From: an uncultured Saprospiraceae bacterium
GTDB taxonomy: Bacteria > Bacteroidota > Bacteroidia > Chitinophagales > Saprospiraceae
Assembly (NCBI GenBank): GCA_937973995.1
Contig: CALJIQ010000113.1
Span: 1 to 37,935, forward strand
Reading direction: 5' to 3'
DNA: 37,935 nucleotides
The position numbers were made by a program, and so were the translations under genes. The notes under the pieces were generated by a model, which was not told the origin of the DNA, did no database searches, and was given only the letters and a program-made list of their open reading frames with translations. Positions 22,925 through 29,646 of the stretch are shown in pieces. Within the stretch, counting starts at the first letter, position 1. Each line of letters starts with the position of its first letter.

Positions 22925-24061
22925 TTAATGACTATGCACTAACTCTCCTTTCCCAAGCTGATCCAAATAAATAAAGTGACTCTTGAGTGCATCCAAAAAG
23001 GTAGTATGCTGATGATAAGGCAAGTTATATTCTAATGCAGTGCTTTTAACAATTTTTGAGAGCGATTTATAGTGAACGTGGCAGATGTTGGGAAAAAGAT
23101 GATGTTCAATCTGAAAGTTCAGTCCGCCAATTAACCAAGAAAACAAAGAATTAGTATTGGCAAAATTAGCGGTAGTTCGTAGCTGATGAATCGCCCAATT
23201 ATTTTCCATTCTTCCCTGGTCATCTGGATTGAAAAATTCCGTTTCCTCTAAAATGTGTGCAGATTGAAAAATCAATGCTAGTATCAATCCACAAATAAAA
23301 TGCATCAGTAAAAAGCCTAGAATAATTTGACCAAAGGAAAAGTCTAACAAGAAAAGCGGTAAACAAATAGTTAACGCTATATACCAAATCTTATGGAAGA
23401 TCAATTGACCTAAAGCAGTTGCAAATGTTAATCCTTCTCCCGCTAATAATCCATTCTTACTAAAACTTGCGATCTGTTGAAAATCTTTCATTAAGAAGCG
23501 ATTCAAACTCATTAGGCAATAAACAAAAGGTGCGTAATAAGCTTGATATCGAAAGCGTTTACTAGGCTCTCGTTTAGGAGAAAAACGCATAAGGGGATTG
23601 TCTGTATCCTCATCGAATCCATTGATATTGGTATAGGAGTGATGCAATACATTGTGTTGAATTTTCCAAGTACTGTGAAAGCAGCCCATGAAATTTATGA
23701 CGAATCCAACCACTTTATTAATCGTTCTATTAGTAGAGTAGGACCCATGATTCGCATCATGCATCACGCATAAACCAATCCCTGCCATGCCCAATCCCAT
23801 GATGCCCCATATGAGTATCATGCCTCCAAAGGAAGTAATCATACCAGATAGTAAGAAAAAGAAGGGAATAAAATAAAGACCAAGCATAAACGTGGTCTTT
23901 AGTACCATGTTTAAATTAGCCTTTTTAGATATGTTTTTCTCTTTAAAATATTGATTTACTCTCTTATTCAATACTCTAAAGAAGTCAGGTTGATCTGCCT
24001 TGTTGAACTTAAGTCTTGTCTGGTCCATTCGTTTATTAGTCTGTTGGTAGGGGCGGGGCAT
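22925..24061 (-). CDS. Membrane fatty acid (acyl-CoA) desaturase, front-end-like
   Basis: His boxes HDANHG, HNVLHHSYTN, QIEHHLFP. Confidence 0.92.
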   Translation of the reverse strand: MPRPYQQTNKRMDQTRLKFNKADQPDFFRVLNKRVNQYFKEKNISKKANLNMVLKTTFMLGLYFIPFFFLLSGMITSFGGMILIWGIMGLGMAGIGLCVMHDANHGSYSTNRTINKVVGFVINFMGCFHSTWKIQHNVLHHSYTNINGFDEDTDNPLMRFSPKREPSKRFRYQAYYAPFVYCLMSLNRFLMKDFQQIASFSKNGLLAGEGLTFATALGQLIFHKIWYIALTICLPLFLLDFSFGQIILGFLLMHFICGLILALIFQSAHILEETEFFNPDDQGRMENNWAIHQLRTTANFANTNSLFSWLIGGLNFQIEHHLFPNICHVHYKSLSKIVKSTALEYNLPYHQHTTFLDALKSHFIYLDQLGKGELVHSH

Positions 24062-26216: not shown

Positions 26217-27188
26217 CTAAAGACTCTTCCTCCCAATCGCCATCATCACAATATCCCAATAGCCTTGTTCCAATAACCCCTTTTTATAAAAGCCTCTTTC
26301 TTTTAATAGCCGATGCATCTTAGGTAAGTTGTACGAAGGAACACTCATTAATAAATGATGCTCTACGTGGTAGTTTACGTGATGGGGAGCAAATAAAATT
26401 CTTTCCAAGAAATTCGCATAAGTAGTGCGGGTATTGCGCATTACATCTTCCGTGTCTTCCACCATGGAATGTTCCGCCATTGAGCGAATGCGGATCGAAA
26501 AATTAAAGGTGGTCAGTAGTGCGCCGACCCATAATAAATATAGCCAAGGACTCGCTAAAAAAAAACAAAGCGCAAATAGAATAACCTGCGTTACAATAGG
26601 TCCTGTTGCATTGTGATAAGCTACCTCGAAAAATTCCTTCCAAGTTCGATCTTGTTGATTTATTTTTTCAATTTTTTTACTCAAGCTATATTTTAAATAG
26701 CCCAAGTGCATACTCATCAAGCCAATTTGAGACTTGGTACCCGTTGCTCCTAATAAATCTCTTCCCAATTTTCGTAGCATACTAGCCACAGAAGTCGGAT
26801 ACCCTTTAGTCAAAGAAATATCAGGGTCTTCTGCGGTGCCTGTTGTCAAGTGGTGCTCCAAATGATAGGTCCGATATTTCAACATATCATTCATGATCGG
26901 ATAGCTGCCCAACCATTTTCCGACAAAGTCATTTAGCTTTTTATTTTTAAATAAAGCATAATGTCCCGTATCGTGCATGATAATGGAACAAGCTAATTGC
27001 TGTCCACCCAATACAAATAAGGCGATCAAAATTACCAATGGATTTGGGAATAGATAAACCACTGTGAAAGTGGCAATGATTCCACCCCAAGTTTGCAGCA
27101 CTTGCCAGACTCCTTTCCAATCGTTTTTTTGAATGAGTTCTTTTCTTTCTTGTGGGGTGAGGTATTTGGAGACTACTGATGGATTCAT
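26217..27188 (-). CDS. Fatty acid desaturase
   Basis: His boxes HDTGHY, HLEHHLTTG, HVEHHLLMSVP. Confidence 0.9.
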   Translation of the reverse strand: MNPSVVSKYLTPQERKELIQKNDWKGVWQVLQTWGGIIATFTVVYLFPNPLVILIALFVLGGQQLACSIIMHDTGHYALFKNKKLNDFVGKWLGSYPIMNDMLKYRTYHLEHHLTTGTAEDPDISLTKGYPTSVASMLRKLGRDLLGATGTKSQIGLMSMHLGYLKYSLSKKIEKINQQDRTWKEFFEVAYHNATGPIVTQVILFALCFFLASPWLYLLWVGALLTTFNFSIRIRSMAEHSMVEDTEDVMRNTRTTYANFLERILFAPHHVNYHVEHHLLMSVPSYNLPKMHRLLKERGFYKKGLLEQGYWDIVMMAIGRKSL

Positions 27189-27969: not shown

Positions 27970-29646
27970 TCAATTCTTTTGGACAATACCATTCCGAAGA
28001 ATCGCCTCCATAACGGGGTCTTTTAATTTCTTCAAGGTCGTTGAATCCACTTTTTTCAAATAGGGATTTTTTTGTAACTCAGGGAGGCTAATGCTGTTGT
28101 CCTGAAAATATTTAGCCTTTATTAATTCTTTAATAGCCTTTCTGTTTTTAGGATTTTTTTGCAAGATGGCGATTGCTTTTTCTTCTGCTTCTTTATTGTT
28201 CCCGATAGCATTTTGGGATACTACTTGTTCCAATAAATTTTCAACAGTTGCCTCTCTTGTCACTTGTGGACGACCAGGTCTTGGTGTTGAAGGGGTGGAA
28301 GTAGCATTTCCTCTTCGTCGTGAAATTCTATCCTTTTCGGTCGCTATTTTTTTCTCTACTCGTTCTAGATCGTCTTTAATAGGTTTTTTCATTTTAGGTG
28401 GGCATGCCTTTTCTGCTCTGCTATAGTCTTTTTTTGCTGCTCCCAAATTGCCTAACTGTTCATGAATTTCTGCTTTTTTATAAATAATTTCAGGGCTACC
28501 GTTATTTAATGTTTCTAAGGTATTGAAATCTGCCAGTGCTTCATTCAATTGTTTTTGCCTCAACTGGAGGTGCGCCCGATTGTTTAATGCTAAAGTGGCA
28601 GTAGGTTCTTCTGCTAGAATTTTTGAATAAGTAGCGATTGCTTCATTGGGTTTGTTTAATTTTTTATAACTCTCCGCTTCCATATATTGTAACTTCTTGG
28701 CTATTCCTTTTTCTACGACTACAGGAGTTTTTTCTTGGAGATCGGCAACGGCTGAATAATTTTTTTCCTTAAAAGCAACGGTTGCTTTTAGGACTCTTTT
28801 CAACACTTTTTCTATTTGTTGGGTTGCCCCTTCAAAAGAAGCAGAAGTGAGTGCCTTTTGAAGTACCGTGTCTATTTTTCCGTCCGTTTCAAAATCCGAT
28901 AACCATTCAAATTTAATAGGATCCGTAAGCGAATAATGAACGGTAATGCCCGTTGTAGCATCCAGTATATCTGCCTGTCCCCATACTAGCATATTTGGGT
29001 TGCATTGTTGCAGATATTCATTCGCTTCTTCTTCACTATAAATGGCTTTAATCGCTCCATCTGGTTGTATCGTACCAATAGTAACCGCTAAGTTTTCTTC
29101 TTTTGAAAAGGCAGCTAATTGACTAACGATATGTTTATGAGGAGCGGTCCTGCCAGCCGGTAATTCATTATGAAATGGTAAGACTAAGACCTTGAAGGAG
29201 GGAGAATTATAGGCAGGACATTCCCACTCAATTTTTTCTTCCTTATTGAAAAAGAAAAAGTAAGAAGCCGCACCAATACCTCCCAATATTCCTACTAATA
29301 AAATCGCTAAAATGGCAGCAATTTTCCAAAATCCTGTAAAAGAAATGGCATCTACGTTATGGGAATGATAGGCTTTTCCTTCCTTTAAATCTTCCAGTAT
29401 CTCTAATACCGCATTGCTGATCTGATTGGACTTAGTCGTATAATTCTGAAAGCCAATCACATCAATTCTTCTGGCTCGTTGCAACTGCGAATAATTATTA
29501 GAAAGGAGGGTTACTTCTTTGTGATAGGCTGCATAGGTAGGTTGATCTTTTAGGCTGGTCGCTAACACCTCCAATACCTGTTCCGTCTTGGCTTCGCCAA
29601 TTAGATCTATTAGGTTTTGGTAGTTGATGTTTAGCGGTGTAGGCAT
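27970..29646 (-). CDS. EAD11-like N-terminal domain + TM helix + TolB/FlgO-like domain + TPR repeats + C-terminal helical region
   Basis: LIDLIGEAKTEQVLEVLATSLKDQ...KEVTLLSNNYSQLQRARRIDVIGFQNYTTKSNQISNAVLEILEDL; TM FWKIAAILAILLVGILGGIGAASYFFFF; TPR-like AIATYSKILAEEPTATLALNNRAHLQLRQKQLNEALADFNTLE. Confidence 0.7.
   Translation of the reverse strand: MPTPLNINYQNLIDLIGEAKTEQVLEVLATSLKDQPTYAAYHKEVTLLSNNYSQLQRARRIDVIGFQNYTTKSNQISNAVLEILEDLKEGKAYHSHNVDAISFTGFWKIAAILAILLVGILGGIGAASYFFFFNKEEKIEWECPAYNSPSFKVLVLPFHNELPAGRTAPHKHIVSQLAAFSKEENLAVTIGTIQPDGAIKAIYSEEEANEYLQQCNPNMLVWGQADILDATTGITVHYSLTDPIKFEWLSDFETDGKIDTVLQKALTSASFEGATQQIEKVLKRVLKATVAFKEKNYSAVADLQEKTPVVVEKGIAKKLQYMEAESYKKLNKPNEAIATYSKILAEEPTATLALNNRAHLQLRQKQLNEALADFNTLETLNNGSPEIIYKKAEIHEQLGNLGAAKKDYSRAEKACPPKMKKPIKDDLERVEKKIATEKDRISRRRGNATSTPSTPRPGRPQVTREATVENLLEQVVSQNAIGNNKEAEEKAIAILQKNPKNRKAIKELIKAKYFQDNSISLPELQKNPYLKKVDSTTLKKLKDPVMEAILRNGIVQKN

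Follow-up and report, generated by a model that had tools for sequence, protein, structure and literature searches.

We found that a gene from an uncultured Saprospiraceae bacterium encodes a putative transmembrane receptor which, judging from sequence comparisons and predicted structures, probably recruits separately encoded effectors through an N-terminal effector-associated domain of the EAD11 type. The window analysed here is a stretch of 37,935 nucleotides which forms an entire contig (C113) of a 5.4 Mb genome that is 94.6% complete. The gene lies at positions 27970..29646 on the minus strand, starts with ATG and encodes a protein of 558 amino acids in which the open reading frame, Pfam and AlphaFold2 together place EAD11, a transmembrane (TM) helix, a TolB-like domain and TPRs, in that order.

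Domain layout and predicted topology of the putative receptor

The EAD11 domain spans residues 9–87 (29386..29622, minus strand) and is predicted to be a cytoplasmic four-helix adaptor. It matched the Pfam model PF19964 with E = 2.5e−13 and 50.3 bits, and when residues 1–92 were searched alone EAD11 was matched with E = 3.7e−15. The initial annotation had recognised an EAD11-like N-terminus by eye, and this call was right, as the match is well above the curated cut-off of 26 bits. The EAD11 model gave no match above cut-off in any of 14 control genomes. In an AlphaFold2 model of the whole protein (12-sequence alignment, mean pLDDT 75.4) the helices of this domain were found at residues 9–17, 21–32, 36–60 and 66–89. 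They are followed by a hydrophobic helix at residues 108–133 (29248..29325, minus strand), with a hydropathy of 2.59 from residue 109. The C-terminal part is a TPR solenoid at about residues 313–525 (28072..28710, minus strand), which was matched by Pfam TPR_1 and TPR_2 (significant matches spanning residues 319–416), was modelled as a helical solenoid up to approximately residue 525 and gave TPR matches in Foldseek. The one TM helix and the TPRs which had been proposed at the outset were thus borne out by hydropathy, AlphaFold2 and Pfam. A search of the window protein against NCBIfam returned nothing useful, and PADLOC gave no match to the full protein and only a match to PDC-S42 (E = 0.0049) for the EAD fragment.

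Between the TM helix and the TPRs lies an α/β receptor domain, delimited by the family profile at residues 143–297 (28756..29220, minus strand), which is probably extracytoplasmic. This domain had no sequence matches in Pfam or PDB. Residues from approximately 143 to 270 were modelled as a β-α-β-α-β-β domain, and a family member from Phaeodactylibacter was predicted by AlphaFold2 to have the same fold as the window protein. Foldseek, run with PDB and BFVD as targets, gave nothing beyond TPR matches or matches of low TM-score and so was uninformative on the identity of the domain. When compared by hhalign with COG5616-type TolB-like domains, it scored 31 (probability 46–60%), with VLPF and VIWG in register, against a mean of 12.6 (SD 2.4, maximum 20.9) for 100 column-shuffled controls and scores of 9.7–13.3 for unrelated decoy profiles; segments of the domain's own family scored more than the decoys, at 103 for a segment overlapping the domain, as expected, and 22 for the adjoining TPR segment. 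As the score of 31 exceeds both the shuffled maximum and the decoys, a TolB-like identity is probable, although the relation is a distant one only. The "TolB/FlgO-like" label given earlier therefore stands as a profile–profile likeness to COG5616-type domains, but not as a sequence match in Pfam or PDB. The window's genome also encodes a class III cyclase-TM-TolB-like-TPR protein (L176, 829–3294), which is of equal layout and has a different output domain.

Two cysteines of the outer domain, Cys143 (29218..29220, minus strand) and Cys215 (29002..29004, minus strand), were invariant in two homologue alignments (A1 and A5) and among 46 homologues were present in 87% and 80%, respectively. The typical homologue in this set of 46 had two cysteines C-terminal to the TM helix and none N-terminal to it, and the EAD side of the helix was richer in K/R in 38 homologues. 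As regards K/R, the window protein is an exception, since it lacks a positive-inside bias (1 inside, 2 outside). In one relative (L196) the receptor domain follows a lipoprotein-type signal sequence, as judged by inspection. The outer part is inferred to lie in the periplasm and to contain a disulphide.

Candidate EAD11 partners in the same genome and in relatives

Including the window protein, four proteins in the window's genome matched EAD11 above the cut-off. The first of the other three (C155, 394 aa) contains Peptidase_C14 (E = 8.2e−15) followed by EAD11 (E = 1.2e−8), with the catalytic motifs GHG and DSCFSG present; the second (C159, L163:3730-4290, 186 aa) contains EAD11 (E = 5.7e−16) followed by a winged helix (HTH_27, E = 4.7e−5); and the third (C198, L199:6418-7287, 289 aa) is a short paralogue of the receptor which lacks the TPRs but has EAD11, the TM helix and the outer domain. 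None of these four proteins, from a genome which is 94.6% complete, was found to contain an NTPase domain. The receptor had been described as an orphan, a reading which we dropped because of these three further proteins; the search for an EAD11 partner in the genome, which had been named beforehand as a check on the proposal, did find partners, the caspase-EAD11 protein among them. With its fusion of EAD11 to a winged helix, C159 may give an EAD a transcriptional output.

EAD11 was found in 96 of the 199 Saprospiraceae genomes, with a highest copy number of at least 26. All 66 of the proteins examined in seven genomes matched EAD11, and their added domains included SIR2_2 (n = 4), caspase (n = 3) and Trypsin_2 (n = 2); TIR and CHAT were also visible in the sequences of EAD11 proteins from relatives. 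A further EAD11 protein was present in 51 of 54 receptor-positive genomes and any EAD11 in 44 of 145 receptor-negative genomes (kinship ignored). At the level of genera EAD11 occurred in 35 of 37 receptor-positive versus 27 of 75 receptor-negative genera (P = 8e−10, with the receptor's own EAD11 counted and kinship ignored). Caspase-EAD11 proteins were found in 16 of 50 receptor-positive versus 6 of 149 receptor-negative genomes, an excess which was modest within EAD11-positive genomes (P = 0.028, kinship ignored).

Some genomes have very small sets of EAD11 proteins. There are exactly two in G063, which is 100% complete: the receptor and an EAD11-TIR protein, so that the idea can be tested with one receptor and one effector. 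The set of G072 consists of the receptor, an EAD11-TIR protein and an EAD11-TPR protein, and that of G112 of the receptor, an EAD11-trypsin protein and a third protein with EAD11 as its only Pfam match. None of these three minimal sets includes an EAD11-NTPase.

Approximately one third of the EAD11 proteins in the seven genomes have a TM segment directly C-terminal to the EAD, and in some relatives EAD11 is joined to STAND/NACHT-like and other NTPases (assigned by eye). These arrangements would suit a receptor which is a membrane-targeting or membrane-acting end point, to which cytoplasmic EAD11 sensors (STAND or other) signal. We consider this improbable, given that EAD11-NTPase fusions are absent from the window's genome as well as from G063, G072 and G112, that the single TM helix is accompanied by a large conserved outer domain of disulphide type, and that a TIR or CHAT domain joined to the inner end, as described below, suits a receptor better. 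We also observed a second membrane class, in which EAD11 and a TM segment are followed by a carboxypeptidase-regulatory-like β domain (L027, L041, L048, L055, L056, L098 and L104).

The EADs themselves are very divergent. Those of the receptors fell largely into one clade (35 of 40, with weak to moderate support), outside of which lies the receptor subtype of the window, and pairs of EADs within the window's genome were 10–23% identical. The mean similarity between receptor and effector EADs was the same within genomes as between genomes, so the sequences give no sign of matched pairs, and co-evolution of the two kinds of EAD within a genome was rejected. The divergence and the outlying subtype would fit an EAD11 which is vestigial in this lineage, or a purely structural oligomerisation domain, with the protein acting alone. 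So would the two nearest relatives, G008 and G003 (86% and 90% complete), which have the same receptor subtype and no detectable second EAD11; genome incompleteness alone would account for both absences with a probability of approximately 1.4%. We nevertheless regard a vestigial EAD11 as very improbable, since the domain is kept in 57 of the 68 distinct receptor-domain copies, scores 50 bits in the window protein and has three further representatives in the same genome.

Family range, gene neighbourhood and exchange of the inner domain

Of 199 genomes which GTDB assigns to Saprospiraceae, 54 were matched by a profile of the post-TM domain, and a broader receptor-domain profile matched 102 of 398 Saprospiraceae genomes. 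Among 396 genomes sampled across the phylum, no genome matched besides the window's own. The group is Saprospiraceae-like, as Phaeodactylibacter and Lewinella cohaerens are among its named members. When the contigs of the genomes were scanned with the window protein as query no match was found, and a mixed alignment was too divergent for the scan; a profile built from a closer subset of homologues gave matches.

A single receptor copy was present in 50 of the 54 receptor-positive genomes. Both the window's genus and genus g64 have long (approximately 550 aa, with TPRs) and short (approximately 300 aa) forms side by side, which hints at a receptor pair. The receptor gene is placed between proC and rmuC in several genera, some of which also have a MarR gene close by (gene names assigned by eye). 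The window gene sits away from this site and has ordinary neighbours, encoding a Dabb protein, a penicillin amidase, a fatty acid desaturase and a Na+/H+ antiporter. A defence-island neighbourhood was rejected because housekeeping genes adjoin the receptor in relatives and ordinary genes do so in the window. The window contains two fatty acid desaturase genes (22925–24061 and 26217–27188), with the Na+/H+ antiporter gene between them.

The strongest evidence for a receptor that works through an adaptor is domain swapping at the inner end. The 11 receptor-domain copies without EAD11 carried TIR (n = 4), CHAT (n = 1) or no or another domain (n = 6). The TIR-TM-receptor-TPR proteins came from genus g74 (TIR_2: E = 2.3e−14 in G180, E = 2.9e−13 in G633) and genus g25 (TIR_2: E = 2.9e−11 in G032, E = 2.3e−9 in G160), and the CHAT-TM-receptor (CHAT: E = 5.5e−8) is an extra receptor copy in G009, whose gene (L195:3495-8128) divergently adjoins a caspase/WG-repeat gene. 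None of the three surveyed TIR-receptor genomes (G180, G032 and G160) was EAD11-positive, an outcome expected in all three by chance at P = 0.14. With TIR or CHAT standing in place of EAD11, the inner end of the receptor is a slot for either an effector or an EAD11 adaptor. The earlier suggestion that this protein is the membrane-anchored half of a split system is well supported by these swaps and by the receptor and EAD11-TIR pair of G063; the overall interpretation of which it was part is partly supported, by the EAD11 match and the partners in the genome, while homotypic EAD pairing and a conflict role are its conjectural elements. In G217 (L198:1249-3938) the receptor looks split in two: an ORF with EAD11 alone and a TM-receptor ORF overlap by four bases, and both contain the motif GKGDNVGRDKN.

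In the mechanism that we propose, the receptor would be a single-pass inner-membrane protein whose periplasmic TolB-like and TPR part senses a ligand or an envelope event, and sensing would alter its oligomerisation. The cytoplasmic EAD11 would then nucleate homotypic EAD11 contacts and thereby recruit separately encoded EAD11 effectors, which would become activated. The candidate effectors in the window's genome are the caspase-EAD11 protease C155 and the EAD11-winged-helix regulator C159; in relatives they would be TIR, SIR2-like, trypsin, caspase or CHAT proteins, and in some of these TIR or CHAT fused straight to the receptor may bypass EAD11 altogether. Several of the observations above count against this mechanism: G008 and G003 lack a second EAD11, receptor EADs bear no special likeness to the effector EADs of their own genome, K/R in the window protein do not favour the inner side, and neither the caspase-EAD11 excess within EAD11-positive genomes nor the absence of EAD11 from the three TIR-receptor genomes is strong.

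The main rival is a housekeeping envelope-stress receptor of the CadC/ToxR-like kind. CadC/ToxR-type receptors have a cytoplasmic winged-helix DNA-binding output, one TM segment and an outer domain. In a receptor of this kind EAD11 would only dimerise or recruit the EAD11-winged-helix protein, and the output would be transcriptional, with no immunity or cell death. The near single-copy receptor and its frequent position beside proC, MarR and rmuC across genera are consistent with this, as are the EAD11-winged-helix protein and the cyclase-TM-TolB-like-TPR proteins of equal layout in the window's genome. However, the TIR and CHAT swaps and the partner caspase, TIR, trypsin and SIR2-like proteins point to toxic or proteolytic outputs, and a winged-helix partner was seen just once. 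We consider such a regulator unlikely, with the membrane end point and the vestigial EAD less likely again. A receptor which recruits effectors through EAD11, as we favour, may be the conflict component that the initial annotation had in mind, but it could equally serve envelope-stress signalling, since it is single-copy and often found in a conserved housekeeping neighbourhood.

Comparison with known systems

In their main texts, Kaur et al. define EADs and describe how these recruit effectors to NTPase-centred cores (PMC7159879, 2020; PMC8195603, 2021). Those main texts make no mention of EAD11, FlgO or TolB-like receptors, and a search of the available literature for EAD11 returned only unrelated uses of the string. 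As in the EAD-linked conflict systems, the small helical EAD is also found on caspase, TIR, trypsin, SIR2-like and CHAT effectors elsewhere in the genome, and the adaptor position is interchangeable with a fused effector, which is TIR in four genomes and CHAT in one. In contrast to those systems, the hub that bears the EAD is here a predicted transmembrane receptor, whose TolB-like/TPR part is of periplasmic type; no EAD11 protein with an NTPase domain, as expected of a core such as VMAP, iSTAND or GAP1 with an NTPase switch, was found in the window's genome or in G063, G072 and G112; and the EADs are not more alike within a genome than between genomes. Because the four EAD11 proteins of the window's genome carry no NTPase domain and the hub is a transmembrane receptor, we did not file the family in the ternary or GTPase systems; with a shared EAD and interchangeable effectors but no NTPase core, it is better seen as a variant beside the systems of Kaur et al. 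than as a member of them.

EACC1, a two-gene membrane-associated system described in the main text of PMC7159879, has a short TM domain whose flanks are small, lies in an operon with its effector and is linked to EAD1 or EAD2. The receptor resembles it in having a TM component, which in EACC1 is sometimes fused to an EAD, and caspase-type partners, but its outer part is far larger (approximately 420 aa) and its partners are unlinked: no caspase-type effector gene adjoins the window receptor, whose neighbours are the Dabb, penicillin amidase and fatty acid desaturase genes. With CadC/ToxR-type receptors and the COG5616 cyclase-TM-TolB-like-TPR receptors (as in L176) it shares a cytoplasmic output domain, one TM helix and a TolB-like α/β domain followed by TPRs. 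It differs from these and from the CadC/ToxR type in that the output is EAD11 (or TIR or CHAT) and not a cyclase or winged helix, and from the COG5616 receptors in that its TolB-like domain is distant and has a lineage-specific cysteine pair.

We tentatively put forward the family as an undescribed, NTPase-independent class of "death-receptor-like" signalling, in which a conserved, single-copy transmembrane envelope sensor would be coupled through EAD11 to changeable, unlinked caspase, TIR, trypsin or SIR2-like effectors. If true, this would supply the many "orphan" EAD11 effectors of Saprospiraceae with a sensor and would represent an outside-in pathway for death or stress whose layout resembles, by analogy alone, that of animal death receptors, with a transmembrane receptor as its hub where the EAD-linked systems so far described are built around cytoplasmic NTPase cores.
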